Origin: Cyclina sinensis
Taxonomy: Eukaryota > Mollusca > Bivalvia > Venerida > Veneridae
Length of the DNA: 64,000 nucleotides
Assembly (NCBI GenBank): GCA_012932295.1
Contig: JAAONU010000001.1
Span: forward strand, 20,460,120-20,524,119
Direction of reading: 5' to 3'
This document shows positions 2,369-37,137 of this stretch, piece by piece (the stretch's first letter is position 1; every line of letters begins with the position of its first letter). The notes beneath the pieces are model-generated. The model saw only the letters and a list, made by a program, of their open reading frames with translations. It had not been told where the DNA came from and searched no databases. A program made the position numbers and the translations under genes.

Positions 2369-4674
2369 GTGAAAGACTTTAATTGATCAACTGATTAATC
2401 AACAAGATGTTTTTTCTTTAGGTTTGCAAAAAAACATGATATTAACTTCTAGCTTCGTCCTTTTCTGTCGTGTTAAATATCAAACATCTTTAACGGTGCA
2501 CTTGCACTCTTTGCTTGTATCAGAGATGGGCTGATATTTTTGTTTTTGTTTATCAAGTTACAATATTTTTTTCAAACGCAATTAAAGAAGGCATTTCAAG
2601 CTAGTTCATTTTAATCAAAGGATAGCTGATTTTATTGATGAAGTTAAGCTGACATTTCTTAAAGTTAAGTTTTCTAGAATTTGTTGATGTTTTCTATTTT
2701 AAATGATATCTTAATTTCACAGTTAATTTCATTTGAATGACTATGATTTTGTACTGTTTTTTTTGTATATTTAATTGTTGTATAATAAGCATTGTTACTT
2801 TTTCCATTGGCATGATGTGTTCTTATTTTATTTCCCAATAAATATTAAGTTTATTTTACAGAAAACATAGGCAAAAGGAGTATTTTTTCCTGACTATAAA
2901 GACACTTTCTGTGAGTGCTATGGCTTATTATTGCAATCAAATTGGTATCAAATGATTAATGCTATATTGTTAAATACTAATGAATTATGTTTCTAATATA
3001 TTGTGTTGAAACTGATCTGTCGGAGTGATAATTGATTCAACGCAAATGGAATGTCAACTTACAATTTATGGAAATCAGCAAACATTGATTTGTAAAAACT
3101 TCGATTCAGGAGAGGAATTTTAAACTTTTCAGATAAATCTGTCATGTCAACAAATTACATTTTAAATGTCTTTAACAAAAAACAATTTACACTAAATAGA
3201 ATCAACGGATTAAGAAAAAAAGATTTATTACTAAGAACATCAACAAAGTTAATAATGTTTTCTTGTCATACTGTAGCGAGAAAAAAATATTCAAAACCAA
3301 GTTAATCAAAGCTTTGATCAGTCAAGACATGTAAATTAGCGAATACAAGAAAGGCAAAGATTGAAATATTCCACGAGAGACCATGTTAGATGTTTCATTT
3401 AATTAACAAGATAGCTATGTGAAACAGATAAGAGACGAACAAAACTTTTTATTCTCCACAATCACAGAATATTAATGCCTGAATGAATGTGTCTGAATAG
3501 GAAAAACAATATTGTTTAAATCTTAATGGACAAGATTTAACATATTACTTATTAGCAGATTACTCATTTAAAACACGCGATTTATTAGTATTTTAACATT
3601 TTGCATCATAACTTACAGGTTTTGACAAGAGCTAAAAACGATTTTAAAAAAGGGTACCATAACCAGCAAGTTTTTGAAATCTAAATTATAATATCTATAT
3701 TTTCACAGGTATATCAAATGTAAACTACAGTAATTAATAATTCCATTGCAACTGAAGGCTTTACATGTAAGTTCAAACAATTTCACAAATTATGATGTTG
3801 GTAATTTGCTTCTCTTTTAGGTCTTTCTGTCTGTATTTTGATAGAATGAAAGCTGATCTTGCAAATTTGTATCTTTTTCTGTTTTATGTTTATCTCCGTT
3901 TTTATTTATCTTTATTTTTCCATTATTTCTTCATTTCTATTCTCCGTGTTGTGTCTTTTTTATTGTTTCAGTTAGCCGACCAGTATAAATGAAATGTTCA
4001 TATCAGACCATATCTGTTTTTGTTGTTTACTAAACCTCACAACGAGGTCAACATATTCAATGAGTGAAAATGAAGAATGCAGATGGGAGTTGGAAGCAAC
4101 AAATATGTCCGTCTAGTGTTTCTCTGTCCATGATTAAATCAGGTTTTTGTGTTTTATGTCCTTCCAGTTATAGCATTTTCAGTTCTGTCTATCACCTTAT
4201 ATGAGCATTTATTTGCTTCTTACGTCTCGTTAGAAGATTTCCTTAGATCAGAAAAAGAAGAATTTTAAATTCATAAAATTGTGTTTATGCTTGTTTGCAA
4301 TTTCATTTCAACGACTGTCTGTCTAAAAAGAAATATGTCGGGATAAAAAGAAATGAAAAACGAAACCAGACACTTCTTATTGTAAACCATTTACTGATCT
4401 GATATTTTGATACATAAAATGGCAGCTCTCTTCTATAAAAGGTATGCAACATGTGTAATACTTTTGTTACTTTTTGTAATTAAAATATGAGAATATTTTT
4501 ATTTGAAAAGGCGGTTTGCACAGTAAAGTTTCCATTTAATCATGTAAGGCACTCTTTCAAGCATAAAAAAACAACTGACCCTAGACTAAATATATTAGTA
4601 ATTCTCCCCTGGTTGATTTGTCTGTTTGTGTGTCTTTTAAACCTATTGGTATGTGCTCTCCTCCACTAGACTTT
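2369..4674. other. AT-rich stretch, no gene seen
   Basis: Plain AT-rich sequence with short homopolymer runs. No convincing open frame, RNA gene or repeat structure is visible. The open frames at 3792-3992 and 4487-4669 are low-complexity F/L/Y-rich translations of T-rich DNA. Confidence 0.5.
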
Positions 4675-4683
4675 AATGTGGTA
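4675..4683. repeat. Target-site duplication, left copy (AATGTGGTA)
   Basis: The nine bases AATGTGGTA directly precede the inverted tip that starts at 4684. The identical nine bases follow the opposite tip at 17008-17016. A perfect 9-bp match exactly at both symmetric ends marks the element as one inserted unit. Confidence 0.9.
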
Positions 4684-4788
4684 ATTAGAGTGAAGTTAGC
4701 TATGAGATCTGCAATCGACGTTCCACATTCAATGTACAGCTATGCAATCAACATTCGGCTATGCATTAGCAGATATGCTAATACACAG
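4684..4788 (+). repeat. Terminal inverted repeat tip, left
   Basis: 105 bp that match the reverse complement of 16903-17007 with only a few mismatches (for example ttccacattc against ttcgacattc, and agctatgcaat against agcaatgcaat). It contains a small dyad, ATTAGCA-gata-TGCTAAT, at about 4766-4783, just before the regular array. Because the tip is outside the tandem module and conserved on both sides, it is the likely transposase-binding end. Confidence 0.85.
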
Positions 4789-7154
4789 TTGTGCAGTCTA
4801 CGTTCAGCTCTGCATTCAACGAATGTAGAGCTGTGCAATCGACATTCAGCTCTACATTCAAAATAAATTATTCCTGAATGTAGAGCTATGCATTCGACGT
4901 TCAGCTCTGCATTCAACGAATGTAGAGCTGTGCAATCGACATTCAGCTCTACATTCAAAATAAATTATTCCTGAATGTAGAGCTGTGCATTCGACGTTCA
5001 GCTCTGCATTCCCCGAATGTACAGCTATGCATTCGACGTTCAGCTATGCATTCAACGAATGTAGAGCTGTGCAATCGACATTCAACTCTACGTTTGAAAT
5101 GCAATATTCCTGAATGTAGAGCTATGCATTCGACGTTCAGCTCTGCATTCAACGAATGTAGAGCTATGCAATCGATATTCAGCTCTGCATTCACTGAATG
5201 TAGAGCTGTGCAATCGACATTCAGTTCTACATCCGAAATACAATATTTCTGAATGTAGTGCTATGCATTCGACGTTCAGCTCTGCATTCAACGAATCGAC
5301 ATTCAGCTCTACATTCAAAATAAATTATTCCAGAATGTAGAGCTATGCATTCGACGTTCAGCTCTGCATTCCCCGAATGTACAGCTATGCATTCGACGTT
5401 CAGCTATGCATTCGACGTTCAGCTATGCATTCAACGAATGTAGAGCTGTGCAATCGACATTCAGCTCTACATTCGAAATAAATTATTCATGAATGTAGAG
5501 CTATGCATTCGACGTTCAGCTATGCATTCAACGAATGTAGAGCTGTGCAATCGACATTCAGCTCTTCATTCGAAATAAATTATTCATGAATGTAGACCTA
5601 TGCATTCGACGTTCAGCTCTGCATTCCCCGAATGTAGAGCTATGCAATCGACATTCAACTCTGCATTCAACGAATGTAGAGCTGTGCAATCGACATTCAG
5701 CTGTACTTTTAAAATAACTATTTTTGAATGTAGAGCTATGCAATTGACGTTCAGCTCTGCATTCCCCGAATGTAGAGCTATGCAATCGACGTTCAGCTCT
5801 GCATTCACTGAATGTAGAGCTGTGCAATCGACGTTCAGCTCTTCATTCGAAATACAATATTCCTGAATGTAGAGCTTTGCATTCGACGTTCAGCTCGGCA
5901 TTCAATGAATGTAGCGCTATGCAATCGACGTTCAGGACTGCAGTCCCCGAATGTAGAGCTGAGCAAACGATATTCAGCTCAGCAATCAGCGAATGTAGAG
6001 CTGTGAAATCGACATTCAGCTCTACATTCGAAATGCAATATTTCTAAATGTAGAGCTATGCATTCGACGTTCAGCTCTGCATTCAACGAATGTAGAGCTG
6101 TGCAATCGACATTCCGCTCTACATTCGAAATACCGTATTCCTGAATAAAGAGCTATGCATTCGACGTTCAGCTCTGCATTCACTGAATGTAGAGATGTGC
6201 AATCGACATTCAGCTCTACATTCGAAACACAATATTCCTGAATGTAGAGCTATGCATTCGGCGTTCAGCTCTGTATTCCCCGAATGTAGAGCTATGCAAT
6301 CGACGTTCAGCTCTGCATTCACTGAATGTAGAGATCTGCAATCGACATTCAGCCCTACATTCGAAATACAATATTCCTGAATGTAGAGCTATGCATTCGA
6401 CGTTCAGCTCTGCATTCAACGAATGTAGAGCTGTGCAATCGACATTCAGCTCTACATTCGAAATAAATTATTCATGAATGTAGAACTATGCATTCGACGT
6501 TCAGCTCTGTATTCCCCGAATGTAGAGCTATGCAGTCGACATTTAACTCTGCATTCAACGAATGTAGAGCTGTGCAATCGACATTCAGCTCTGCATTCAA
6601 CGAATGTAGAGCTGTGCAATCGACATTCAGCTGTACTTTTAAAATAAATTATTTTTGAATGTAGAGCTATGCAATTGACGTTCAGCTCTGCATTCAACGA
6701 ATGTAGAGCTGTGCAATCGACATTCAGCTCTTCATTCGAAATAAATTATTCATGAATGTAGACCTATGCATTCGACGTTCAGCTCTGCATTCCCCGAATG
6801 TAGAGCTATGCAATCGACATTCAACTCTGCATTCAACGAATGTAGAGCTGTGCAATCGACATTCAGCTGTACTTTTAAAATAAACTATTTTTGAATGTAG
6901 AGCTATACAATTGACGTTCAGCTCTGCATTCCCCGAATGTAGAGCTATGCAATCGACGTTCAGCTCTGCATTCACTGAATGTAGAGCTGTGCAATCGACG
7001 TTCAGCTCTTCATTCGAAATACAATATTCCTGAATGTAGAGCTATGCATTCGACGTTCAGCTCTGCATTCAACGAATGTAGAGCTATGCAATCGATGTTC
7101 AGCTCGACATTTAACGAATGTAGAGCTGTGCAATCGACATTCAGCTCTATATTC
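4789..7154 (+). repeat. Left array of hairpin tandem repeats (42 + 55 bp, about 97-bp higher-order unit)
   Basis: The module is a 39-nt dyad: 13-nt arms gaatgtagagctg and cagctctacattc around a 13-nt loop such as tgcaatcgacatt. Dyads are separated alternately by a 3-nt linker (aac or ccc), giving 42 bp, and by a 16-nt AT-rich linker (gaaataaattattcct type), giving 55 bp. The 97-bp period is exact, for example, between 4876 and 4973. Roughly 50 dyads are present. A block near 5480-5880 recurs near 6650-7050 (offset about 1,166 bp), showing internal duplication. Many open frames on both strands (for example 4740-4958 minus, 5600-5866 plus) are translations of the module and are not genes. Confidence 0.9.
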
Positions 7155-7974
7155 AAACATATATTATCAAGTATTTAGCTTGGCAAAAGATATTAAGTTC
7201 TTTTTTCTAAGATTATGCCTTTTGATTAGAAGAAACACGGAAAGGATTTATTACACAGATCGGTCTAGACAGACATTGATACAGAAACTTGTTGGACAAC
7301 ATCAAACTGTCCAGCAACTTACTATGTGGAGTGGAGGAGGAGACATTATTTCAATTTTCTTCTTTTCTCCTTTTTTCTTAAGTGCCTCTATAACGCATGC
7401 AAACGTTAATGGATGTCTACCTAGCAGACTGTCACTTTCACAGTACATTTACATGAAAAAGGAAATATTCTTTAACAAAGAAAATGATATTTAAAAAAAA
7501 CCGAGACAGTTGATTAAACGTATTTTTTATTGCTCTTATGTCAAATGTATCATTCACTACAGTAGCAGACATGTTATTCTAAACATTACAATATTATCAC
7601 ATGAAACTAAAGACAAATGTGTTTCATGTTTATTCACGGCAACCATGTATATGAAATCAAACATAGAGTTCTATTTGAAAATATGACGATTTAAAAGTCG
7701 TGTAATACATGTGCAAGCTTATTTATATATCTTTTACACTTAAAATTACATCTCTATGTAAGAAAAAAATGAAAGAAATCACATCTGCATTCCAAAAAGA
7801 AACCTGAACTGCAAGTGTTATCTTAACGTACAATACGTAATCTCTTAATGTACCAGACTAAATTGTGCACTTTATAGAAAAAAAAAACAAGACCTGTCAC
7901 TGTAAAATGACAATGCCCCCTAAGTGATGCTTTAACCTTTGAGCTAAGGACCACTCATTCAGGGGCCAAGGTCA

Positions 7975-8230
7975 AATAAATATGTCAATGGGAAGGTCTT
8001 GTCCAAAGAGGTTTTGTGTCCAAGTATGAAGTATATCCACTTACTACGAAGGAAGTTATGGCCATTGTTAAAGTTTGTGGACAATTGAATCTCAAGGTAA
8101 TTTCGGCGTTCAGTGTCAAATATGTCAATGGGAAGGGCTTGTCCAAAGAAGTGTTGTGTGAAAATATGAAGTTAATGCACTTACTGATAAGGAAGCCATG
8201 GCCCATGTTATAGTTTTCAGACGGATTGAC
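7975..8230 (+). repeat. Two-copy 140-bp repeat
   Basis: The word tatgtcaatgggaagg starts at 7981 and again at 8121. The following 100 bases stay alignable (cttgtccaaag, gaagt...cacttact, taaggaag, atggcc). The block is followed by gacgta-rich sequence and then atatgcttcccttcgg (8274), a relative of the 'gctcccttcggggagc' end seen at 49,710. This looks like a fragment of a dispersed bivalve repeat family. Confidence 0.6.
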
Positions 8231-10204
8231 GTAAGGACTGACGTACCGACTAACTAACGTACAGTTAAAAAGTATATGCTTCCCTTCGGAACCCTAACCT
8301 TAGGCATAATAAGATTCAAAGTTCAACTCATACCGGTATGTTCCAGCATACTGTAAAACACTCGTGCATTGCTGCTTTAATTACAAAGACGCGGCGCTTT
8401 ATATTTCTTATATGTCTCAATCTAAATGAAATATCCCAACAATGTGTCATACATACATCAGAAAAAGTCGCAACCTGCATCAGGTGTCGTAAAAAGATGA
8501 AGTTTTACTTGTTGCAAAAAATATCTTACTGTTATGAATGTTTAAACTACTTTCACGTGGTTGACATGGTCAGCCTTTCTATCTTTTATCTACTGAATGT
8601 TTGTCACTTCTTCAAATAATTGAAGTATTATTCCAAGCCTTGGTACCTTTTGTTAACATGGCTTTATGTGCAGCAGAACATCTGTGTGGAAATATAAACG
8701 TATCATCGCTTTAATCATTGCTTTTCGTCGTTGACTAAAAGCATTTCGCGCCGGAAAGATTGCTGGCGGTCTACATATACGTTATAAAAATGTCTATAAT
8801 ATGTAATTATTATTAATAGACAAGTATTAATTATTCTTCATAAATTATTATGAACCAGTTATATTACTTTATTTTTACCGCTTGATTCCATATTGAATGC
8901 GCATGCGTAAAATTGGTATAGTTAAACTAGCCACGTGCTAAACATACTGGCGAAAAGATATTCAGAGTTAATTAAAAGCTACACTTTGACGGCCCTTTTT
9001 TTATTTTAATCTATTTGACTACAAATCGTTCCAATGTGTAAGATGTATGCAATTATATCGAATAAAAAGTTTATTTCACCGTGTACTGCACAGTACGGAG
9101 TATATTTTGACTCGTACCATTTTCGACACGCCTGCTGGCTTGGCACTTGTCTAAATATCCTTACAATACCAGAAATAAATATAATCTTGAAAAAACAGGA
9201 AATGTTTATAGCCGCTATATATTTACGGATTTTGAAGCTGCATTTATAGAAGTTTCTAACGTAAACTTTTTTTGATCTTTTTATTGTGTAAATGAAAGTA
9301 TTGTTAATGTACTAAATATCTATGAAATAAATATTGTTTAACAAAATATAATACAAAGTAACTTAAACTTGTTTCTATCTGCTTGATAAATTAGATATAA
9401 TTATAAATAAAGTTTTGCATTTCCTTCTTTTTATTGACGCAGTTATAGAAAACGTGACATATTATACGACATATGTTTGCGACATTTAGGATAGGTTGCG
9501 ACACATAATATCACTGCGACATATGAGAATGGTACAGTGTACAGACGCTTCAGCCTAAAAAGAGTCACTACTTAATATATCCATAATCAAAAAGGCAGCT
9601 TATATAGAAAAGTCTGTAATATGTTTATAACCAATTACTCTGCTATCACTGCCGTATAAAGAATTTTTCATTTGAACATTACTTTTCAATGTCAAAGAGT
9701 ATTTGCAACAAAATTAAATGTTTCACTTACGCAAAAACACAATGACATAACATCACATCTTATGCTTTTTTTCAAGACCTTGACAAATATGATCAGACTT
9801 GATAGTAAACAAACCAAAACTATCCAGAAGACTCCCTTTCTTTCAAGCTGAAAATTATTGAAGTTTGTGTGTACATTTAACACCCTATTGAAATACAAAT
9901 AACTTGTCTTGTTAAAACACAGTTATATTTCATAGTTCATTTTGAAATCACATAAACCATGAAAAAATAGCCATATTTTTCAATTCAATGTTGTTTATAT
10001 TTTCAAGTATAACTGAAAGGGAAATTGTTATATGAATATATCTTGTAAGATTTTTACAAAAGACAAAAAAAAAAAAACCTCATATTACTGTTTCTACCTT
10101 TATACGAGAGAATGATCAAAAATGGCAGTTCTACATATTCGCTTTTTCTGAAGAGTGTTTATATGAAGTCGACGACAACTTAATACAAGAGATGTTTGTA
10201 AAAT

Positions 10205-11040
10205 ATATATGCCCCCGTAGCGACTTATCCCTAGAGGTAGCTATGAAGTTATGAGGAGCTGAAACCAAGCGTTCTGCAGTTATTAATCGGAAACCATTGT
10301 GCTAATTAAGGTCACTGTGACATTGTCCTTTGACCTGGTGTTCTGAAAAGCTAAAGGTCTAGGACTTAGATATTTTGCCTAGAGCATCAGCAAGAGGTCC
10401 TCTACCAAAATTGTTCAAATTATATTGCTAGGGTCAAAATTGGCCACACCCCAGTGGTGCAATTTGTGTAAAATATAGAATTTTATAAAATCTTATGAGA
10501 TGTATCGTAAATTTTAGACCTAAAATTTTATCGCTTGGAGCATTATCATGAGATCCTGTACTTAGATTGTTCAAATAATGCTCCTTGGGTGATAAATAGC
10601 CCTGTCTAGGAGTCACTTGAGTTTACATAAGCTTATGTAGTGAAAACTTTAAAGAAATCTTCTTGTCTGAAACCACAAGGCCTAGAGCATAGATATTTTG
10701 CACTGAGCACTAGCTAGAGTCCTCAACTAAGTTTTTCTTCAAAATATGCCCCTAGGATAAATATTGGCCCTTGCCTGGGGGTCACTTTATTTTACATATT
10801 GAATGAATAATTAAAGCAGTATGCCAAAGAGCTTAGATATTTTTAATATAGATTTGTATAGTTCAAACAATGTCCCTTCGGTCAAAATTGGACCTGCCTC
10901 TGGGGTCCTATTTGTATAGAATATAAGATCTTTGAAAATCTTCAATTCAGAAACTTTTGCTTCTGATGTTTGCTCATCAGCAGACCCAAAGCAAAAGAAT
11001 TCAGGTGAGCGTTCCAAGCCCATCATGGCCCTCTTGTTTT
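10205..11040 (+). repeat. Dispersed bivalve repeat, about 180-bp period, ending CATCATGGCCCTCTTGTTT
   Basis: Successive modules contain 'cttgtctgaaaccacaaggc', 'cctagagc...agatattttgc', 'gttcaaa' and 'cctgggggtcactt' in the same order. The block closes at 11020-11040 with 'cccatcatggccctcttgt'. The same family, at various stages of decay, occurs at 22000-22680, 24595-25820 and 27470-27890, and inverted at 49322. No coding potential is seen; the open frames at 10434-10616 and 10811-11077 (minus) are translations of the repeat. Confidence 0.75.
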
Positions 11041-11045
11041 TAGTG

Positions 11046-11330
11046 TGGTTTGGTAGCTCAGTTGATAGAGTGTCCACCTGAAAGTGGAAGGCCCTGGGTT
11101 CGAGTCCCGGTCAAGTCATGATATTTCACCACCTGTTACATTTCCCCCCCCCCCCCACCAAAACATAAATAACTTAATAAATAACTTATAATATGGCTAC
11201 TGCTTTGGCACCTCGAGAATGTGTTTACAATATTCTCTTTGACTCTAAGAATGCTGGACAAATTCTAAATTAAGAAGGGGTATCTGTAGCAGAGTGCAGT
11301 TTTATAGATGATAAATTGATCAGGCAGAAC
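11046..11330 (+). mobile_element. tRNA-headed SINE-like repeat, copy 1
   Basis: The first about 70 bp are tRNA-like: an A-box-like tagctcagttgatagag at 11054 and a canonical B box, GGTTCGAGTCC, at 11097-11107, after gccctg. The head is followed by 'ccacctgttaca', a C tract and an AT-rich tail. The 3' limit is set by the start of the next copy and is approximate. It is unlikely to be a functional tRNA because no clean acceptor stem or CCA-proximal pairing is evident. Confidence 0.6.
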
Positions 11331-11331
11331 C

Positions 11332-11450
11332 GTGTGGCTTAGTAGATCAGTTGGTAGAGTGTCTGCCCTGTTTGGGAAGGCCCCGGGTTCATGTCTCGGT
11401 TGAGCCACAATTTTTCCCCACCTGTTACACTAACATCATAAATTGTCGAG
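11332..11450 (+). mobile_element. tRNA-headed SINE-like repeat, copy 2 (decayed)
   Basis: This resembles copy 1 290 bp upstream: gtgtgg-cttagtagatcagttggtagagtgtctg, then aaggcccc and a damaged B box (GGTTCATGTCT), then the shared 'ccacctgttaca'. Two relatives in tandem suggest a local duplication or a dimeric SINE. The end coordinate is approximate. Confidence 0.55.
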
Positions 11451-11906
11451 CTATGAACGTCCCTGGAAATTTATATACTTCCTGTAATCTAGGTGTCTTC
11501 CACAACTGCTAAAAACTTCTGATTCAAAGACTCCATGAAAATCTGTGTAACAGTTTTCGTAAGCTAAGGGTTTTTTCTTCTATCTTCTGATGTTGCTGTA
11601 CTGTTTACTTGCAATATGGCCTTATCGTATGGTACATTCAAACAGCAGCTGAATCTGATCTTACTTCCACTTATTTCCCATAGTGTTGATTTACTGTAGT
11701 CAGTAGCACATTTTACAGTTAATAAATGTCTATGGTTTTTGAAATCTGGTTAAAGACTTCCATTGCATAAGTTTGTATATTTAACCAGCTGATTTAGTGT
11801 TTATAATGACCGTAAGTCTTAAAAGTCAAAAAAATATGCAACGTTGTAATATCTTGCTAATATCTCTGCCATTTACTTTTTAAAATAAGTGCTGCTTGTA
11901 AAATTT

Positions 11907-12960
11907 ATACCCTCATCAAACATAGTTTGTGGGGGGGGGGGGGAGGGGAGGGCTATATAGGAATCACTTTGTCCCGTCCTGTCTCATCTCAGGAACCGGT
12001 AGAGTTATAACTTGAAATATAAAATATCGATGCAATATCACAATGCAACTGCGTGTGTCAAGTTCGATAACTCTAATAGTTATTTTGACATAATTATGCC
12101 CCTTTTTATCTTAGAAAATATCCCACAATTTACATTTTTTCTTGAATATCTCTGGAACCAGAATGGATATGAACTTAAAATATCAATGCAATATCATAAG
12201 CACCTCCATGTGGCAAGTTGAATAACTCTGATGTTTATTTTGAAATAAATATGCTCCTTTTTAACTTAGAAAATATCCCAAAATTTACATTTTTCTGGAA
12301 TATCTCTGGAACCAGTATTGATATGAACTTGAAGCTTAAAATATCAGTGCAGCATCCCAGTGCAGTTCCATGTGTCAAGATGTATAACTCTGGTATTTAA
12401 TCTGTTCAAAACTTTAAATATATCTTAAGGGTCACAAGAATGCTCAGTTGGCCAATTTTCATAACTCTTTAATGCATTTTAGCAAAGTTATGCCTCTTTT
12501 TTACAAAGAAAATTTTTCTGAAATTAACATTTACTTAAATATCTTTAATACCAGATAAGATGTTCTCTTGAAATTTAAATGGATTCCAGGAGATCCAAGC
12601 ATGATTAGCAGGCCAAGTGTTATTACTAAGTACTGGATTTTGACAAAGTTATGCCTTTTTTTTACTTTAAAAAAGTCTTGAAATTTGCATGTACTATAAT
12701 ATCTCTGAAACCTGAACAGGTATTAACTTGAAATTCAAAATGTACATGGAGGGTCACAGGCAAGCACAGCAGGACAAATTCTACAACACTTCCTTACATA
12801 TTGACAAAGTTATGTCACTTTTTTACTTAGGAAATGTTCTGATAATTTTTGTTAATACTTGAATAGTCTGAAACCAGAAGAGGACACTTTATCTTCAAAC
12901 AATAAATATAATGAGGGGTCACAAGGCCCCGAGCACCAGCTGAAGAAGAATCCAACATCT
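11907..12960 (+). repeat. Bivalve repeat with G tract and about 160-bp modules
   Basis: It opens 'taccctcatcaaacatagtttg', followed by a 14-G run at about 11930-11943. The following modules repeat 'ggaaccagta...atgaacttgaaa', 'gtgtcaag...taactct' and 'ttatgcccctttttta' (at about 12093, 12250, 12490, 12650 and 12815) with increasing decay. I recognise the opening as a repeat type common in bivalves. No gene is present; the open frames at 12012-12221 and 12218-12400 are module translations. Confidence 0.65.
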
Positions 12961-13159
12961 AAAATTTGAAATGATTATTAAAATTAAATGGTAAAATTTT
13001 GAATTTAGAAACAGATGCGTTCATCAACGGTGATCATGGAATTTTTAATGTGATATATTCATGTCATTCCACGAAAAATTACATGTGGTGCGTAAGAAAA
13101 TGATATGTTTGCCCTAAACGAGACAACGTGTAGAACTAAATGAAATAGAATTCAAAAAT

Positions 13160-13289
13160 GGGATCAGGGTTGGTGCAATCGTAATCAGTAATCGATTGTA
13201 ATCAAATATATTTTTACAAGTTATAGACAGTAATCAGTAATCGAAGTCATTTTCGATTATATGTAATCGAAATTTAATCAAGTACGGTC
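13160..13289. repeat. ATCGATTA-rich tract
   Basis: Repeated 'cagtaatcgattgtaatc', 'cagtaatcgaa', 'tcgattatatgtaatcga' words in both orientations directly abut the right hairpin array. It may be the terminus of another element or a simple AT/CG repeat. Its family is not established. Confidence 0.45.
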
Positions 13290-16200
13290 AATGCAGAGCT
13301 GACCGTCTATTGCATAGCTCTACATTTGGGAATATTGTATTTCGAATGCAGAGCTGAACGTCGATTGCACTGGTCTGCGTTCGGTGAATGCAGAGCTGAA
13401 CGTCGAATGCATAGCTCTACATTCAGGAATGCAGATCTAAACGTCGAATGCATAGCGTTACATTCAGGAATATTGTATTTCGAATGTAGAGCTGAATGTC
13501 GATTGCATAGCTCTACATTCGATAAATGCAGAGCTGAACGTCGAATGCGTAGCTCTACATTCAAAAATAATTTATTTTAAAAGTACAGCAGAATCTCGAT
13601 TGCACAGCTCTACATTCGTTGAATGCAGGGCTGAACGCCGAATGCATAGCTATACATTCAGGAATATTGCATTTCGAATGTAGAGCTGAATGTCCATTTC
13701 ACAGCTCTACATTCGTTGAATGCATAGCTGAACGTCGATTGCATAGCTCTACATTCGGAGAATGCAGAGCTGAACGTCGAATGGATAGCAATACATTGAG
13801 GAATATTGCATTTCGAATGTAGAGCTGAATGTCGATTGCACAGCTCTACATTCGTTGAATGCAGAGCTTAACGTCGAATGCATAGCTCTACATTCGTTGA
13901 ATGCAGAGCTGAACGTCGAATGCACAGCTCTACATTCAGGAATATTGCATTTCGAATGTAGAGCTAAATGTCGATTACACAGCTCTACATCTGTTGAATG
14001 CAGAGCTGAACGTCGATTGCATAGCTCTACATTCGTTGAATGCAGAGCTGAACGTCGAATGCATAGCTCTACATTCAGGAATGCGGTTTTTCGTATGTAG
14101 GGCTGAATGTCGATTGCACAGCTCTACATTCGTTGAATGCAGAGCTGAACGTCGAATGCATAGCTCTACATTCAGAAATATTGCATTTCGAATGTAGAGC
14201 TGAATGTCGATTGCACAGCTCTACATTCGTTGAATGCAGAGCTGAACGTCGAATGCATAGCTCTACATTCAGGGATGCGGTTTTTCGTATGTAGAGCTGA
14301 ATGTCGATTGCACAGCTCTACATTCGTTGAATGCAGAGCTGAACGTCTAATGCATAGCTCTACATTCAGAAATATTGCATTTCGAATGTAGAGCTGAATG
14401 TCGATTGCACAGCTCTACATTCGTTGAATGCAGAGCTGAACGTTGAATGCATAGCTCTACATTCAGAAATATTGCATTTCGAATGTAGAGCTGAATGTCG
14501 ATTGCACAGCTCTACATTCGTTGAATGCAGAGTTGAACGTCGAATGCATAGCTCTACATTCGAGGAATGCAGAGCTGAAAGTTGAATGCATAGCTCTACT
14601 TTTAGGAATAAGGTATTTCGAATGTAGAGCTGAATGTCGATTCCACAGCTCTACATTCGTTGAATGCAGAGCTGAACGTCGAATGCATAGCTCTACATTC
14701 GAGGAATGCAGAGCTGAACGTCGAATGCATAGCTCTACATTCAGGAATAATTTATTTTGAATGTAGAATTGAATATGGATTGCACAACTCTACATTCGTT
14801 GAGTGCCGAGCTGAACGTCGAATGCATAGCTCTACATTCAGGAATATTGTATTTCGAATGTAGAGCTGAATTTGGATTGCACAGCTCTACATTCGTTGAA
14901 TGCAGAGCTGAACGTCGATTGCATAGCTCTACATTCGGGGAATGCATAGCTGAACGTCGAATGCATAGCTTTACATTCAGGAATACGGTTTTTCGCATGT
15001 AGAGCGGAATGTCGATTGCACAGCTCTACATTCGTTGAAAGCAGAGCTAATCGTCGAATGCATAGCTCTACATTCAGGAATATTGCATTTCGAATGAAGA
15101 GCTGAATGTCGATTGCACAGCTCTACATTCGTTGAATGCAGAGCTGAACGTCGATTGCATGCATAGCTCTACATTCGGGGAATGCAGAGCTGAACGTCGA
15201 ATGGATAGCACTACATTCAGGAATATTGCATTTCGAATGTAGAGCTGAATGTCGATTGCACAGCTCTACATTCGTTGAATGCAGAGCTGAACGTCGAATG
15301 CATAGCTCTACATTCAGGAATATTGAATTTCGAATGTAGAGCTGAATGTCGATTACACAGCTCTACATTCGTTAAATGCAGAGCTGAACGTCGATTGCAT
15401 AGCTCTACATTCGGGGAATGCAGAGCTGAACGTCGAATGGATAGCATTACATTCAGGAATATTGCATTTCGAATGTAGAGCTGAATGTCGATTGCACAGT
15501 TCTACATTCGTTGAATGCAGAGCTGAACATCGAATGCATAGCTCTACATTCAGGAATATTGTATTTCGAATGTAGAGCTGAATGTCGATTGCACAGCTCT
15601 ACATTCGTTGAATGCAGAGCTGAACGTCGAATGCGTAGCTCTACATTCGTTGAATGCAGAGCTGAACGTCGAATGCATAGCTCTACATTCAGGAATGCGG
15701 TTTTTCGTATGTAGAGCTGAATGTCGATTGCACAGCTCTACATTCGTTAAATGCAGAGCTGAACGTCGATTGCATAGCTCTACATTCGGGGAATGCAGAG
15801 CTGAACGTCGAATGGATAGCATTACATTCAGGAATATTGCATTTCGAATGTAGAGCTGAATGTCGATTGCACAGTTCTACATTCGTTGAATGCAGAGCTG
15901 AACGTCGAATGCATAGCTCTACATTCAGGAATATTGTATTTCGAATGTAGAGCTGAATGTCGATTGCACAGCTCTACATTCGTTGAATGCAGAGCTGAAC
16001 GTCGAATGCGTAGCTCTACATTCGTTGAATGCAGAGCTGAACGTCGAATGCATAGCTCTACATTCAGGAATGCGGTTTTTCGTATGTAGAGCTGAATGTC
16101 GATTGCACAGCTCTACATTCGTTGAATTTAGAGCTGAATGTCAATTGCATAGCTCTACATTCGGGGAATGTAGAGCTGAACGTCAAATGCATAGCTCTAC

Positions 16201-16902
16201 ATTCAGGAATATTGTATTTCGAATGTAGAGCTGAATGTCGATTGCACAGCTCTACATTCGTTAAATGCAGAGCTGAACGTCGAATGCATAGCTCTACATT
16301 CAGGAATATTGCATTTCGAATGAAGAGCTGAATGTCGATTGCACAGCTCTTCGTTCGTTGAATGCAGAGCTGAACGTCGATTGCATAGCTCTACATTCGT
16401 TGAATGCAGAGCTGAACGTCGATTGCATAGCTCTTCATTCGTTGAATGCAGAGCTGAACGTCGAATGCATAGCTCTACATTCAGGAATATTGCATTTCGA
16501 ATGTAGAGCTGAATGTCGATTGCACAGCTCTACATTCGTTGAATGCATAGCTGAACGTCGAATGCATAGCTGTACATTCGGGGAATGTAGAGCTGAACGT
16601 CGAATGCATAGCTCTACATTCAGGAATAATTTATTTTGAATGTAGAGCTGAATGTCGATTGCACAGCTCTACATTCGTTGAATGCAGAGCTGAACGTCGA
16701 ATGCATAGCTCTACATTCAGGAATACGGTATTTCGAATGTAGAGCTGAATGTCGATTGCACAGCTCTACATATGTTGAATGCAGAGCTGAACGTCGAATG
16801 CATAGCTCTACATTCAGGAATACGGTATTTCGAATGTAGAGCTGAATGTCGATTGCACAGCTCTACATTCGTTGAATGCAGAGCTGAACGTAGATTGCAC
16901 AG
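13290..16902 (-). repeat. Right array of hairpin tandem repeats, inverted relative to the left array
   Basis: Same 39-nt dyad module as at 4789-7154 but in opposite orientation (gaatgcagagctgaacgtcgaatgc..., then tacattcgttgaatgc). The short linker reads gtt or ggg and the long linker agga-atattgcattt. About 75 dyads are present. Variant linkers (for example aggaatgcggtttttcgt at 14074, 14269, 15692 and 16067) mark subfamilies shared by distant units, which indicates spread of variants within the array. The multiple 67-93 aa open frames on both strands here are repeat translations. Confidence 0.9.
15363..16112. repeat. 375-bp tandem duplication inside the right array
   Basis: 15363-15737 and 15738-16112 are nearly identical unit by unit, including rare variants: 'gttaaatgcag', the private 'gaatggatagcattac', 'cacagttctac', 'gaatgcgtagctc' and the 'gcggtttttcgt' linker. 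The few differences include aacatcg against aacgtcg. This is the most recent amplification step visible in the array. Confidence 0.85.
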
Positions 16903-17007
16903 CTGTGTATTAGCATATCTGCTAATGCATAGCCGAATGTTGATTGCATTGCTGTACATTGAATGTCGAACGTCGATTGCAGATCTCATAGCTAACTTCA
17001 CTCTAAT
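16903..17007 (-). repeat. Terminal inverted repeat tip, right
   Basis: Reverse complement of the left tip at 4684-4788, including the ATTAGCA-tatc-TGCTAAT dyad (about 16908-16925). It ends CTTCACTCTAAT at 17007, immediately before the 9-bp duplication. Confidence 0.85.
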
Positions 17008-17016
17008 AATGTGGTA
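17008..17016. repeat. Target-site duplication, right copy (AATGTGGTA)
   Basis: Identical to 4675-4683. Extending to 10 bp would break the symmetry of the tips (ATTAG.../...CTAAT), so nine is the better-supported length. Confidence 0.9.
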
Positions 17017-19015
17017 TGGCCTTTTGGTAAGACACTATCTGCTTCGTGTTTTAACCAGCAAAGCTGACTCTGTCATTAGTATAGTTGTGTTTTGAGAACT
17101 ACAGATGAGAGTTGTTTGAAGTGGCTTCACAAATCTAGCCAGTCATATTGGTATGAGACTAAACACTGATAAAATGTTCTGTCACGAATTAAGTCTTGCT
17201 GATAATGAATAAGCATCGAGCATGAATTGTTACTAAAAAAGTTAAACCAGGAACTACGCATGAAAGCCACTGATCATGTCAGCATAGCATGGATGCAATT
17301 TAAATTTCATATAGTTTATTGCCTGTACTTGAGGACTGTTTTTTCATTGTAAGACCACGTATAATGTGAATTGTCAGGATAAAAGTAGTCTTGATTAAAG
17401 CAAAACAGAAGAATTTAGAAAAAAGTGATTGTAAACTTTAAAAATCGTGTGACAGTCGTTGAAAATGTATTAACAGTTTATAATAATGTTATTATTGTTT
17501 TCATTACTCTGTTGTTTACCTGTCAAACAATTCTTTGCAATACCAGTACGCTCTATGCAATTAGGCTACTTTTTATTAATCTAGTACGAGTGCAACTATG
17601 TTTGTTTTTCTTTTATTTTTGTTTTGGCTTTTTATTTTTTCATTCGTTTCCAAATCACAAAAGAATAGAACAGAACTCTAATAACTCAGAAGGTTAAATT
17701 TTGTTTGAACACTTTGGTATACATATCAAATTATTGGAACACAAATGTTGAAACAAGACTTAATAATGTGTTTAATGATTTTTTTTATTATTTACGTAAT
17801 GCTTCAAAATATACATTACATACTTAAATTATGTACTCAAAATTAACGGCCCTTACCAAGACTATCTATGTAATATATTGATACTAATATTGTCATGTAT
17901 TTCCTCTGAGAAAGAAAGTTTTCCTTGCCTTACGCAGGCGTTTGATTTAATGTATAAGAACTCCTTGACAGCTTCATTGAAAATTTTGCTCTGAGACATA
18001 CAAAATCTTTCAGCTTGATGTCCTGAACTTCCATAATACCATTGCAAATGTGGTTGCGAAAGAAAGCTGAACATGAGATTATTGATACAATTTTGATCCA
18101 GTTAGAATTTAAGTTCTGGTCTTGAAAATATTCCGCTTTGTTTTTGTTTTAGCCTATTGATAGTAAATCAGCGATAGTGCTTGATTTTCATCTTTAAAGG
18201 CACAAGCTACATCCGTATTATGTTTTCATAAAACATTACCACTAAAATACAACTCCCATATAGTTCTATAACTGTTTTTGAACAGATCATCGCCTGTTTA
18301 TATTATTCGATTTAATAAAATCTTAGAAATTCTACATAATTGTCTAAGCTTCAGCATGTAACGTGTTTTGATAAAGACGTTATAAGTAAGAATAGTCAAC
18401 AGTTTCTTACTTATTAGTTATCATATCATAGACGACGTCGTGGGCGTATAATAAAGCCGTGTTATGTTTTTGTAATAACATCAGTGTAATAAAACTTTGA
18501 CGTCAACTTCATTAACAATACACTTATGACGTTCGCGCATATACGGACAGAACAAACAGTTTCTGTGAGTTTCTGTGACCATTCACCTACAAAAGTCTAT
18601 GATATAAATTGAACATTATGCTCGGCAGACCCTCGTTTTTATCGTTGCGTCATATCTCGTGCAATAAATCCTGTATTACATGACCCCTCATTTAATATCG
18701 TCTATTTATTACTTTAATTTGCGTTTGTTCATTCGTCGACTTGGTATTTTGAAATTAATGTCTATATCAATAGGATACATCTTTCAGCTCCTTCAGATAA
18801 CGTCTCATTACCCGGAAGTTTATTGACTTATGAACTTAAGACATTTCTAAAAAAAATCAAAGATGAGAAAAGGTAATCATTTGGTTGTTGTTTTACATTT
18901 CTCTCCTCACGGAATAATCGGTTGTAAGATTCATAAGCGAATTTATCATTTGTATATTAAGATTCATCTTGATAAAACATGACTTTTTATACTTATTTAA
19001 GTTAAAAAAAGACTG
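17017..19015. other. AT-rich stretch, no gene seen
   Basis: No credible exon, RNA gene or repeat structure was found. The open frames at 17425-17697 (plus) and 17862-18074 (minus) are low-complexity and have no recognisable motif. Confidence 0.5.
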
Positions 19016-19550
19016 AAATAAAGTGCAGTAAGAAAACTTGAAGTAAATTATTTAAATAAAGTGCAGTAAGAAAACTTTAGGTAAATTATTTAAATAAAGT
19101 GCACTAAGAAAACTTTAGGTAAATTATTTAAATGAAGTGCACTAAGAAAACTTTAGGTAAATTATTTAAATGAAGTGCAGTAAGAAAACTTTAGGTAAAT
19201 TATTTAAATGAAGTGCAGTAAGAAAACTTTAGGTAAATTATTTAAATGAAGTGCAGTAAGAAAACTTTAGGTAAATTATTTAAATAAAGTGCAGTAAGAA
19301 AACTTTAGGTAAATTATTTAAATGAAGTGCAGTAAGAAAACTTGAAGTAAATTATTTAAATAAAGTGCAGTAAGAAAACTTTAGGTAAATTATTTAAATA
19401 AAGTGCAGTAAGAAAACTTTAGGTAAATTATTTAAATGAAGTGCACTAAGAAAACTTTAGGTAAATTATTTAAATAAAGTGCAGTAAGAAAACTTTAGGT
19501 AAATTATTTTAATGAAGTGCAGTAAGAAAACTTTAGGTAAATTATTTAAA
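19016..19550 (+). repeat. 38-bp minisatellite, about 14 copies
   Basis: The unit is aaataaagtgcagtaaga followed by aaactttaggtaaattattt (38 bp). Variants alternate: aaataaag/aaatgaag, gcagtaag/gcactaag, and aacttgaagtaa in units 1 and 9. Units are otherwise nearly identical, so the array is young or homogenised. No coding frame is maintained. Confidence 0.95.
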
Positions 19551-19830
19551 GAAATGTTTTATGACACGTTTTGCTGAAGTAAATATGCATTTGGTTTTTG
19601 TTTCATTTTCCAGTAATACTTTTACTGCAGTGCGAGGTAAAGATTCTACCAAGAAATGAAGGTGTCATTATGCAATGTTTACATTTACAAAATACGATAA
19701 CAACTGTTTGAATACGTCAAATGTTGTAATGCTTTCGACTGCAATAATTAACATGTTGTTTCTCAAAGTCCCCGCATGAACATGCGATTTCACTAATACG
19801 ATATTTTATTACGTAGGAATATACGTTCCA

Positions 19831-22748: not shown

Positions 22749-23239
22749 AACATCTGCTGCTGTGCTTGCTGGTTAACATCTGCTGCTGTGCTTGCTGTTA
22801 ACATCTACTGCTGTGCTTGCTGTTTACATCTGCTGCTGTGCTTGCTAGCTAACATCTGCTGCTGTGCTTGCTGGTTAACATCTGCTGCTGTGCTTGCTGT
22901 TTACATCTACTGCTGTGCTTGCTGGCTAACATCTGCTGCTGTGCTTGCTGGTTAACATCTGGTGCTATGCTTGCTGGTTAACATCTGCTGCTGTGCTTGC
23001 TGGTAAACATCTGGTGCTGTGCTTGCTGATAAACATCTGCTTCTGTGCTTGCTGTTAACATCTGCTGCTGTGCTTGCTGGTTAACATCTGCTGCTGTGGT
23101 TGCTGGTTTACATCTGCTGCTGTGCCTGCTGGTTAACATCTGCTGCTGTGCTTGCTGGCTAACATCTGCTGCTGTGCTTGCTGGTTAACATCTGGTGCTG
23201 TGCTTGCTAGTAAACATCTTCTGCTGTGCTTGCTGTTTA
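22749..23239 (+). repeat. 25/26-bp minisatellite, about 19 copies
   Basis: The unit is aacatctgctgctgtgcttg plus ctggtt or ctgtt, so the length alternates between 26 and 25 bp. Variants include aacatctggtgctgtg, aacatctactgctg and ctggctaac. One frame reads C/A/L-rich protein (22650-22955) purely because of the repeat; it has no start context or domain that would support a gene. Confidence 0.95.
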
Positions 23240-25956: not shown

Positions 25957-26135
25957 TAATATTAGGTTATTATACATTTAACTGTACAATACGGGAATAT
26001 ATTTGGACGAGAACACAGCTTGAAAAGTCATATTGGACGAGCCGATAGGCGAGTCCAATATGACTTTTCCAGCTGTGTACGAGTTCAAATATATTCCGTA
26101 TTGTACAGTTAAATGTATAATAATCTTTTTATTAT
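25957..26135. mobile_element. Near-perfect palindromic (hairpin) element, centre GAGCCGATAGGCGA
   Basis: Arms of about 82 bp (25957-26038 and 26053-26135) are inverted copies, with a few mismatches and one 1-base length difference, around the loop gagccgataggcga. Arm landmarks are ttatacatttaactgtac, aatacgggaatatat, acacagct and aaaagtcatattggac. It carries no coding sequence and would extrude or fold as a cruciform. A related shorter hairpin lies 300 bp downstream. The hairpin-with-compact-centre design recurs at 60755-60943 and 61324-61523, although the sequences differ. Confidence 0.85.
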
Positions 26136-26429
26136 ATATCTTTCGTTTAATTTGAAATATACATCATCATCATTTCGTTTTCAACCAACATCTGATTTCG
26201 TTTTGTTTACAGTGTTTTTCGCCTTTTGTCCGTCGATAAAATCAGAAATTTCTTCATCTGTCAACATTTTGACTTCTGTCAAAACAAAACAACGCTTCCT
26301 GGTCAGCTAGACGCTTTACAAGCAGTTTTAAACATATACTAACAAGCGTCTTTATACACGAATGGTTCCCGGTCTTTCATTCGTTAGAGATTTAAATCGG
26401 AAACCAGACTAGCATCGTTTAGTGCACAT

Positions 26430-35849: not shown

Positions 35850-37137
35850 CTAGTGGAAAAAAGAAACTGTGCATGGGTATAATATGCTATAACTCAGGCG
35901 GTTTATTAGAAACCGCCGAAATGTTTTCAACGGGGTTTTAAAAGACCATTCCATATTCTCACAAGCGCACGTGGCAGGTCAGGTTACGTCAACGGCTGAT
36001 TTTGAAGGCGACGTAAGCGACGCTGCATCTCATCCCACACGTGTTCTAAAGGTGACATATCCGGTGACATTGCAGGCCAGGGCAGCACATTCACATTGTT
36101 CTGGATCAAGAAGTCAGTGACGACTCGTACGACCTGCGGGCGAACGTTATCCTGTTGCAGCGTGGCGTTATGTTGCTTCACAAATGGACGAACGTGAGGC
36201 CGGATGATTTCGTCACGGTATCTGATGCCTGTAAGTGTGCCTTTCACAACCACAAGAGCTGTTCTGCCATGGGATAAGATGCCACCCCACACCATGACAC
36301 TACCTCCGCCGAATGGACGTTGTTGAAACACACAACTGTCATGGAAACATTCAACAACACGATGGTACATTCTAGAACGACGCTGCTGTCGAGATGAAAC
36401 CTGGACTCATCCGTGAAAAGAACACGTGCCCAGTCCTGCTGCGTGAAGTGTATGTGTCATCTACACCAGGCAAAACGTGCTACACGGTGACGTTGCTGGA
36501 GAACAGGACGTATGGCTGGACGTCGTGGACGTCTGCTTCGTTCAAGCAACCGATTAAGTACTGTTCGGAAACTAATTCTTTTAAGGCCAGGAATACTTCT
36601 AGCTGCCAAAAAAGCAGTTCTGAGTCGTTCACGGAGATGAATAACCTGGATGTACATGTACGTATCCTGGCGATTAAACGTTACGCGTGGACGTCCTGAC
36701 CGGTCTCTGATGGTCCCAAACTGTTGGTACTGTCTCATCAGGGCGTCTAAAGTATTTCGGTGCACACCAAATTGTCTGGCAAAGTCAGTATGACGTACAC
36801 CAGCTTCGATCATCCCTACGATGCGGCATCTGTCAGTTTCATTCAATCTTAGCATGGCGTATCAAAGAAGTTTTTCAAAATTTTGGTGGTTTTGTGTCTT
36901 ACAGGTATTAACACTATGCTTAAACACAGGTTTACGCGACAAACGTGTTTGCAATTGACTGCTAGCAGAAAAAACATGATAACGAAGACGTTGGCCAGAC
37001 AGATAAACTACCCGTGCATTCATGCACTGACCAGTGTAAATGAGGGATACACAACTTACCTGTAAAGTTTCAAGCTTTAATTAAAAATGAGCGATACATG
37101 AACATTTTACACATGCACAGTTTCTTTTTTCCGCAAG
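35850..37137 (-). mobile_element. Tc1-like transposon, inactivated
   Basis: A 1,288-bp unit with inverted ends: left CTAGTGGAAAAAAGAAACTG then TGCATG, right its inverse with two mismatches (21 bp at 35855-35875 and 37112-37132 are perfect). It encodes a broken DD34E transposase on the minus strand. The right flank is TA (37138-37139). The left flank is TT, probably a mutated TA. Duplication copy 2 has no insertion at the matching position (near 49,047, 'aataagTAtaaag'), consistent with integration into TA after the duplication. Confidence 0.88.
35984..36855 (-). pseudogene. Tc1-family transposase (broken)
   Basis: The N-terminus is a helix-turn-helix DNA-binding domain (MLRLNETDRCRIVGMIEAGV...), followed by a GRPR motif around residue 55. 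The catalytic core then shows FTDESRF (first D), GGGSVMVWGGI, LQQDNVRPQ (second D) and SPDMSPLEHVWDEM (E), with 34 residues between the second D and E. This is DD34E, as in Tc1 transposases, which cut and paste the element at TA sites. Two lesions break it: an in-frame TGA at 36457-36459 and a one-base frameshift near 36400, after FTDESRF. The length, about 290 codons, is somewhat short of the usual about 340. The plus-strand frame 36394-36699 is its shadow. Confidence 0.93.

Follow-up and report, generated by a model that had tools for sequence, protein, structure and literature searches.

A probable foldback-type DNA transposon with multi-kilobase inverted arrays of dyad-symmetric modules in the bivalve Cyclina sinensis

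We analysed a window of 64,000 nucleotides from the venerid bivalve Cyclina sinensis (assembly GCA_012932295.1, contig JAAONU010000001.1, positions 20,460,120 to 20,524,119 of the forward strand) and found that its positions 4684-17007, about 12.3 kb, are very probably a non-autonomous foldback (FB-like) DNA transposon of the cut-and-paste type, inserted as a unit with a 9-bp target duplication and probably moved by a transposase of the Mutator-like (MULE) superfamily. The nature of the moving transposase is the less secure part of this reading: the 9-bp duplication and the analogy with the elements Tm1, Muta1 and Tetris tip the balance modestly towards MULE. The element consists of two inverted arms, each an array of 39-bp modules ending in a tip, and of a core between them (Table 1).

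The element is bounded exactly by two copies of AATGTGGTA, and its inverted ends, identical at 156 of 160 bp, begin directly inside them. A target duplication lying directly outside the ends is a feature of the foldback structural class. On both strands of the window, AATGTGGTA occurs three times, the further copy being unrelated to the element ends. An initial annotation made from the sequence alone had reported this perfect duplication outside inverted tips, and it stood up to a scan of the whole window. Indeed, when inverted exact 20-mers lying 0.3-30 kb apart were collected, with edges not sorted by place, 4684/17007 was the only one of 1271 inverted edges to be flanked by a direct repeat of 8-11 bp, whose length was exactly 9 bp. 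Many of these edges are not independent of each other because the arms are internally repetitive; at one fixed edge, the chance of a 9-bp match computed from base composition is P = 9.1e-6. Within the window, the first 20 bp of the tip have no second occurrence at up to 5 mismatches, and the left arm used as a query gave no match outside 4600-17100.

Table 1. Coordinates of the element and its parts, in window positions.
Feature	Position	Strand	Basis or description
Left 9-bp target site duplication AATGTGGTA	4675..4683	+	edge comparison and window-wide edge scan
Left tip	4684..4817	+	46 bp of terminal sequence with a half-module, followed by a pair of diverged modules (32/39, 31/39) separated by a 10-bp spacer
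Left arm	4684..7154	+	51 39-bp modules (two in the tip); linkers of 3 or 16 bp save three (43, 22, 15 bp)
Core, ~6.1 kb	7155..13288	.	base composition, window repeat comparison, Pfam scan
tRNA-like sequence	11046..11119	+	Rfam gathering threshold; a 99-bp stretch recurs at 11332-11429 (78%)
Second tRNA-like sequence	11336..11408	+	below Rfam gathering threshold
Right arm	13289..17007	-	78 39-bp modules, of which two lie in the tip, inverted with respect to the left arm; linkers of 3 or 16 bp save two (7, 2 bp)
Two consecutive 375-bp blocks, 98% identical	15419..16168	-	right arm, arm positions 840-1589
Right tip	16874..17007	-	inverted copy of the left tip
Right 9-bp target site duplication AATGTGGTA	17008..17016	+	edge comparison and window-wide edge scan

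Together the arms hold 129 copies of the module, the two diverged ones of each tip included, with the consensus GAATGTAGAGCTATGCAATCGACGTTCAGCTCTGCATTC. The first and last 12 bases of the module form an inverted repeat, GAATGTAGAGCT...AGCTCTRCATTC, with 11 or all 12 positions matching in the common variants, and module positions 13, 18, 24 and 34 switch among a few states. Modules are separated by linkers of two main lengths: among 123 array linkers, 72 measure 3 bp (mostly AAC, CCC or ACT) and 46 measure 16 bp (for example GAAATACAATATTCCT), so that 118 belong to one of these two sizes and five are exceptions. The resulting module steps of 42 and 55 bp account for the periods of 97, 139 and 236 bp given by Tandem Repeats Finder. 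The outer tip is itself composed of module pieces, and the GC content of the arms is 41.8%.

The multi-kilobase inverted tandem arrays that the initial annotation had placed inside the tips are confirmed by alignment, as the best inverted match between the arms reaches 2093 bits against 79 bits in the opposite orientation, the latter being due to the dyads within modules. Long terminal inverted repeats (TIRs) made of tandem modules are characteristic of the foldback structural class. The inverted tips themselves had been given a length of 105 bp; they are present, but this length is an understatement. Indeed, the arms keep the same register for ~300 bp from the ends and, once a single 97-bp step of the right arm is skipped, are collinear to ~500 bp with 92-100% identity per 60-bp window. 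Further inward, the order of variants is scrambled between arms, the two arrays end asymmetrically on the core side, and neither carries a tip sequence there. Arm-specific homogenisation of the modules was not seen, the mean distance being 0.111 among left-arm modules, 0.116 among right-arm modules and 0.113 across arms. Their near identity marks the two neighbouring 375-bp blocks in the right arm as a young duplication inside it, so the arms have been rearranged recently.

Long inverted arrays are difficult to assemble, which speaks for an assembly artefact or a foldback inversion in which one arm was joined to its own reverse complement. We consider this extremely unlikely, since the arms differ in length (51 versus 78 modules) and in the order of modules and linkers, the flanks differ, a target duplication is present, and the longest of the inverted repeats listed within the core is 26 nt, a size expected by chance.

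Other copies of the tip were found among predicted proteins. When an open stretch of 108 residues from the right arm was used to search 5.8 billion predicted proteins, one protein of 152 residues among 282 candidates matched; this protein, used as the next query, retrieved 52 proteins, itself included, and a profile of tips and arrays, with scoring over the best 8000 candidates by shared words, brought the set to at least 70. By their sequences, these relatives are conceptual translations of related module arrays on public contigs. A 13-residue translation of the module (for example NIELWVRHSALHS or EYRAMGSTFSSAF) is present in 63 of 70, and among the 220 module spacings listed, 149 measure 18-19 residues, which fits a 39-bp module followed by a linker of ~15-17 bp. 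By tblastn, 69 of the 70 match the arms, as expected given that array queries had retrieved them.

Eight of the 70 relatives (P0026, P0027 and P0053-P0058) start with unrelated sequence and then enter a shared (R/W)SVKLAMGS(T/K)IDIQLCI... They come from a tip pattern scan over all 70 that gave nine matches; P0064, with a diverged tip, and P0001, which starts inside the tip, stand outside the boundary count. In the last 9-10 residues before the junction, mean identity among the eight is 3% (maximum 20%), and in the 41 residues past it 96% (minimum 90%). The junction codon is the equivalent of window positions 4684-4686, so the similarity ends at the end of the element, within one codon. Read in the same frame from base 4684, the tip of the window element gives IRVKLAMRSAIDV, which agrees with the relatives at 8 of 13 residues (P about 4e-7). 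The longest source contigs of the eight proteins all differ in size, so that the tip occupies several loci, whether of a single genome or of more than one. Further copies in which a related tip and array adjoin unrelated flanks are again a feature of the foldback class, observed here in translations with one end each. The boundary at 4684 drawn by the initial annotation is therefore matched by the point at which similarity stops in 8 of the 8 tip-bearing relatives counted, at codon resolution and in translations. Its proposal that the element moved as a single unit likewise gains support, from the flanking duplication and from the related tip lying beside eight unrelated flanks elsewhere.

These same observations bear on the view that two independent satellite arrays, or solo elements, lie by chance in inverted orientation on either side of ordinary DNA, with no insertion of the 12.3 kb as one piece. 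The core is host-like in base composition, resembles other parts of the window in some of its pieces and meets the two arrays at junctions that lack symmetry, as such a view would have it. It is nevertheless very unlikely in our judgement, as it is opposed by the 9-bp duplication at the outer ends, the lack of a tip at the inner array ends of both arms, the collinearity of the outer ~500 bp and the related outer tip that relatives carry beside unrelated flanks.

Several points weigh against a MULE-moved foldback transposon with the ends given here. The boundary evidence from relatives is precise to the codon and not to the base, resting as it does on translated open reading frames (ORFs), and each relative displays one end, so that inverted arms are known from the window element alone. 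The window tip starts with ATTAGAG, and the first codon of the relatives encodes R (7/8) or W (1/8), so the terminal bases differ. The 14-residue step (42 bp, with the 3-bp linker), which is the commonest in the window, is absent among the listed spacings of the relatives. No transposase was recognised in the core, where 17 of 17 ORFs of at least 60 aa lying wholly within it are without a Pfam match above the cut-off. Duplications of 9 bp also occur in Merlin (PMC8101967) and Rehavkus (PMC6446971) elements. Finally, there is no firm covariation between the two halves of the module stem. Two-sided changes make up 3 of 1500 cells in the 125 non-tip modules, and the mean of 10.584 paired positions over all 125, compared with 10.523 after shuffling, is reached by 8 of 1000 shuffles. 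This excess of pairing fades on the 72 distinct modules, for which 57 of 1000 shuffles reach the observed value, and without pair 6 it is reached by 58 and 250 of 1000 shuffles.

Because the pairing excess fades and two-sided changes are so few, we do not claim selection for cruciforms. As DNA, three pieces of the arrays fold better than their shuffled versions (z -5.0, -6.6 and -8.5), as does the tip (z -2.3), and three controls give z values of 0.0, -0.5 and +0.95. The strong folding of the arrays follows from the module dyads and so is no separate proof. The fourth control, 26000-26149, is a hairpin with a z of -11.6; window positions 26000-26092 form a near-palindrome with arms of ~42 bp, possibly a small element resembling a miniature inverted-repeat transposable element (MITE).

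The core has a GC content of 33.5%, compared with 33.2% in the remainder of the window; it holds internal repeats of ~160 bp, and pieces of it resemble repeats elsewhere in the window. The first tRNA-like sequence of the core is the sole Rfam match at the gathering threshold, and both tRNA-like sequences are probably heads of short interspersed nuclear elements (SINEs). We interpret the core as host DNA, either captured or inserted at a later time, for which the Drosophila element FB4, described as having carried the host gene Ssk, offers a parallel (PMC8277862). The Pfam scan took open stretches of at least 60 aa singly, namely the 17 lying wholly in the core and the core-side part of one coming from the left arm. 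Matches of the core ORFs to IMD, HTH_ABP1_N and DUF5071 were weak and all below Pfam cut-offs, and neither a MULE-type nor an IS1595-type DDE transposase gave an above-cut-off match in the 17 core ORFs. Within the arms, no open stretch of more than 128 aa is listed, and one of 169 aa crosses from the left arm into the core. A protein encoded by the arrays was considered and rejected, as open stretches occur in several frames and on both strands and the relatives match two frames of the same repeat.

Elsewhere in the window, pieces of a Tc1/mariner-like transposase, with DDE_3 and helix-turn-helix (HTH) matches, lie on the minus strand at 35984-36861. Two minisatellites are also present, one at 19016-19554 (38 bp x 14, 95% matches) and one at 22749-23239 (26 bp x 19, 89% matches).

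Some relatives deserve separate mention. In P0060-P0062, P0065, P0067 and P0069, a unit of ~52 residues (156 bp) contains NVELDNRHSAQHS or close variants, near the NVELCNRHSALHS of the window, and may represent a distantly related module of another genome. P0068 (source lgn), a weak match with an E-value of 3.2e-3, appears by eye to be closer to the module variants of the window itself. The domain OB_DEPS-1_2nd passes just above the cut-off in P0060 and P0061 (28.3 and 30.4 versus 27 bits) with no single stretch passing, and was rejected as a function of the relatives, as were their other Pfam matches, all below the cut-off. The array translations of P0016, P0029 and P0039 have a common insert, KPYRFY(V/I)RTVRGLVYR(T/A)CDLVKKARFFSKQILPCKLFW, which follows the array in two of them, precedes it in the third and is probably a repeat inserted into the arrays. 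P0024 and P0063 share the same junction from array to non-array sequence (TWMN(Y/F)INYLDALLY...), and it seems that the array was copied together with one specific inner sequence. Exact tip and module patterns gave no match in virus and prokaryote contig collections, which is uninformative on animals.

For the non-autonomous foldback transposon that we favour, we propose the following mechanism. A transposase supplied by another copy would bind the tip and many modules on both arms, bring the arms together and cut at the tips (4684 and 17007), after which the whole 12.3 kb would be pasted into a target cut with a 9-bp stagger. Before insertion, this target would have read ...CACTAGACTTTAATGTGGTATGGCC... 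with a single AATGTGGTA. Unequal exchange or slippage would afterwards make the arms longer or shorter and shuffle them, the outer ~0.5 kb staying alike. The modules are in this scheme putative transposase binding sites, by analogy with known systems; for Foldback and Phantom elements, module binding is described as remaining to be assayed (PMC3688188).

In the literature searched, judged by titles and abstracts and with Repbase and Dfam outside its scope, we recognised no foldback element from a bivalve; of 8 papers with a letter match, the 7 listed had unrelated titles, each containing one of two module strings of 11-12 bases and none a 16-base string of the tip. The element may possibly belong to an undescribed family. 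The initial annotation had called it a bivalve FB-like element, which holds for the foldback structure. It is also conceivable, if doubtful, that the element represents an undescribed and widely spread lineage of giant foldback elements, with dozens of dyad-symmetric 39-bp modules at fixed linkers per end, perhaps outside the known foldback superfamilies. Were this true, a multimeric transposase needing many sites would recognise the ends, and diverged modules, such as the 156-bp-period arrays of P0060-P0062, P0065, P0067 and P0069, would seed satellites in several genomes.

The cited literature names foldback elements of insects, nematodes, plants and a sea urchin. Reported ends reach 1.7 kb in Tetris and some 1.2 kb in Galileo and are about 150 bp long in Muta1, compared with 2.5 and 3.7 kb for the arms of the window element. 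The latter is unusual in arm length, in its dyad module and in its two main linker lengths. It is a candidate for a route from DNA transposon to satellite DNA, as proposed for Tetris (PMC4079207). Its 129 dyad-symmetric modules at two main spacings provide a system in which the purpose of long repetitive ends can be addressed. Moreover, with tip-bearing relatives on several contigs, boundaries, activity and transposase become accessible to comparison at the DNA level.

Drosophila FB and FB-NOF elements have unequal inverted arms of tandem modules, 9-bp duplications and a variable or absent middle. The likeness of the window element to them is structural and drawn from their description; no NOF-like or MuDR protein was found in the core. 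Helitrons are not known to have target duplications or long TIRs, and the long inverted ends and 9-bp duplication of the window element thus leave a negligible probability for a Helitron or Helentron carrying tandem repeats, such as Cg_HINE of the oyster. Helentrons bearing tandem repeats are indeed described as dispersed in the oyster genome (PMC7492417).

According to the accounts cited, foldback ends arose in more than one superfamily, Galileo being a P element (PMC3573991, PMC3169594), and duplication lengths are 8-11 bp for MULE and 9 bp for Rehavkus (PMC6446971) and 8-9 bp, with terminal GG, for Merlin (PMC8101967). The 9-bp duplication of the window falls within the MULE/MuDR range of 8-11 bp. 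MULE and Merlin are both reported in molluscs, with 63 Merlin elements in one mollusc survey (PMC10294476). An element of the same kind and mechanism moved by a Merlin-type (IS1016-like) transposase has to be weighed, Merlin elements being described with duplications of 8 or 9 bp, GG ends, TIRs of up to 462 bp and possible internal tandem repeats (PMC8101967). Here the 9-bp duplication fits and the tip of the window, which begins with ATTAG and not with GG, does not; the R or W first codon of the relatives, as inferred from the proteins, would be compatible with NGG, in which a single flanking base precedes a GG start. Merlin elements are not known to carry multi-kilobase module arms, and altogether we consider a Merlin origin rather unlikely.

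That an element of the same kind owes its movement to another transposase, whether P-type (Galileo-like), Rehavkus or of a further type, with foldback ends that arose by convergence, we rate as unlikely. Duplications in the P superfamily measure 7 bp, extending to 8 bp, whereas that of the window measures 9 bp. Galileo is a foldback element of the P superfamily with 7-bp duplications (PMC3573991). It resembles the window element in its long, internally repetitive, foldback-like TIRs and differs from it by its duplications, by TIRs of up to about 1.2 kb and by its P-type transposase (PMC3573991, PMC3688188), whose DNA-binding THAP domain binds tandem-repeat sites in the long ends (PMC3688188). 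In Rehavkus, duplications are of 9 bp and a minisatellite lies close to the 3′ TIR; the same account lists no hosts other than arthropods and annelids, and gives TIRs of 26-400 bp and a single minisatellite in place of inverted arrays at the two ends (PMC6446971). Rehavkus and Merlin thus have duplications similar to that of the window element and internal minisatellites or tandem repeats, and as described both are without multi-kilobase inverted arrays at the two ends (PMC6446971, PMC8101967).

The elements on which we base the tentative MULE assignment offer likenesses in several respects. Tetris of Drosophila virilis is a non-autonomous foldback element with duplications of 8-10 bp and tandem repeats in its TIRs, in which no transposase was found, as is the case here; it was assigned to Mutator by duplication length and analogy (PMC4079207). 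Its TIRs reach 1,735 bp with repeats of ~220 bp, unlike the longer arms, 39-bp modules and two main linker lengths of the window element (PMC4079207). Muta1, a MULE of Aedes aegypti, has a terminal motif followed by nine 12-bp subterminal repeats with spacers of 3-4 bp, and duplications of 8-9 bp; its transposase is active in yeast and that of Muta5 is not (PMC5225508). Both resemble the window element in having duplications of 8-9 bp and long TIRs composed of a terminal motif and tandem repeats, and differ from it by TIRs that measure 145 and 151 bp and contain a unit of 12 or 15 bp repeated 9 times, compared with arms of kilobases, and by their known transposases (PMC5225508). Most non-autonomous derivatives of Muta1 have only the ends in common and other interiors (PMC5225508). 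Finally, Tm1, a Mutator/Foldback family of root-knot nematodes, has FB-like ends and 9-bp duplications, with a MULE transposase in one member, whereas none was found in the core of the window element (PMC3169594). Tm1 ends carry 1-9 motifs, most often of 14 bp, with a usually asymmetric A1/A2 tip, in contrast to the 51 and 78 modules of 39 bp and the symmetric tip of the window element (PMC3169594). Both have inverted ends of short tandem motifs in unequal numbers per end and duplications of 9 bp, and the members of Tm1 are mostly non-autonomous, as we propose for the element of C. sinensis (PMC3169594).

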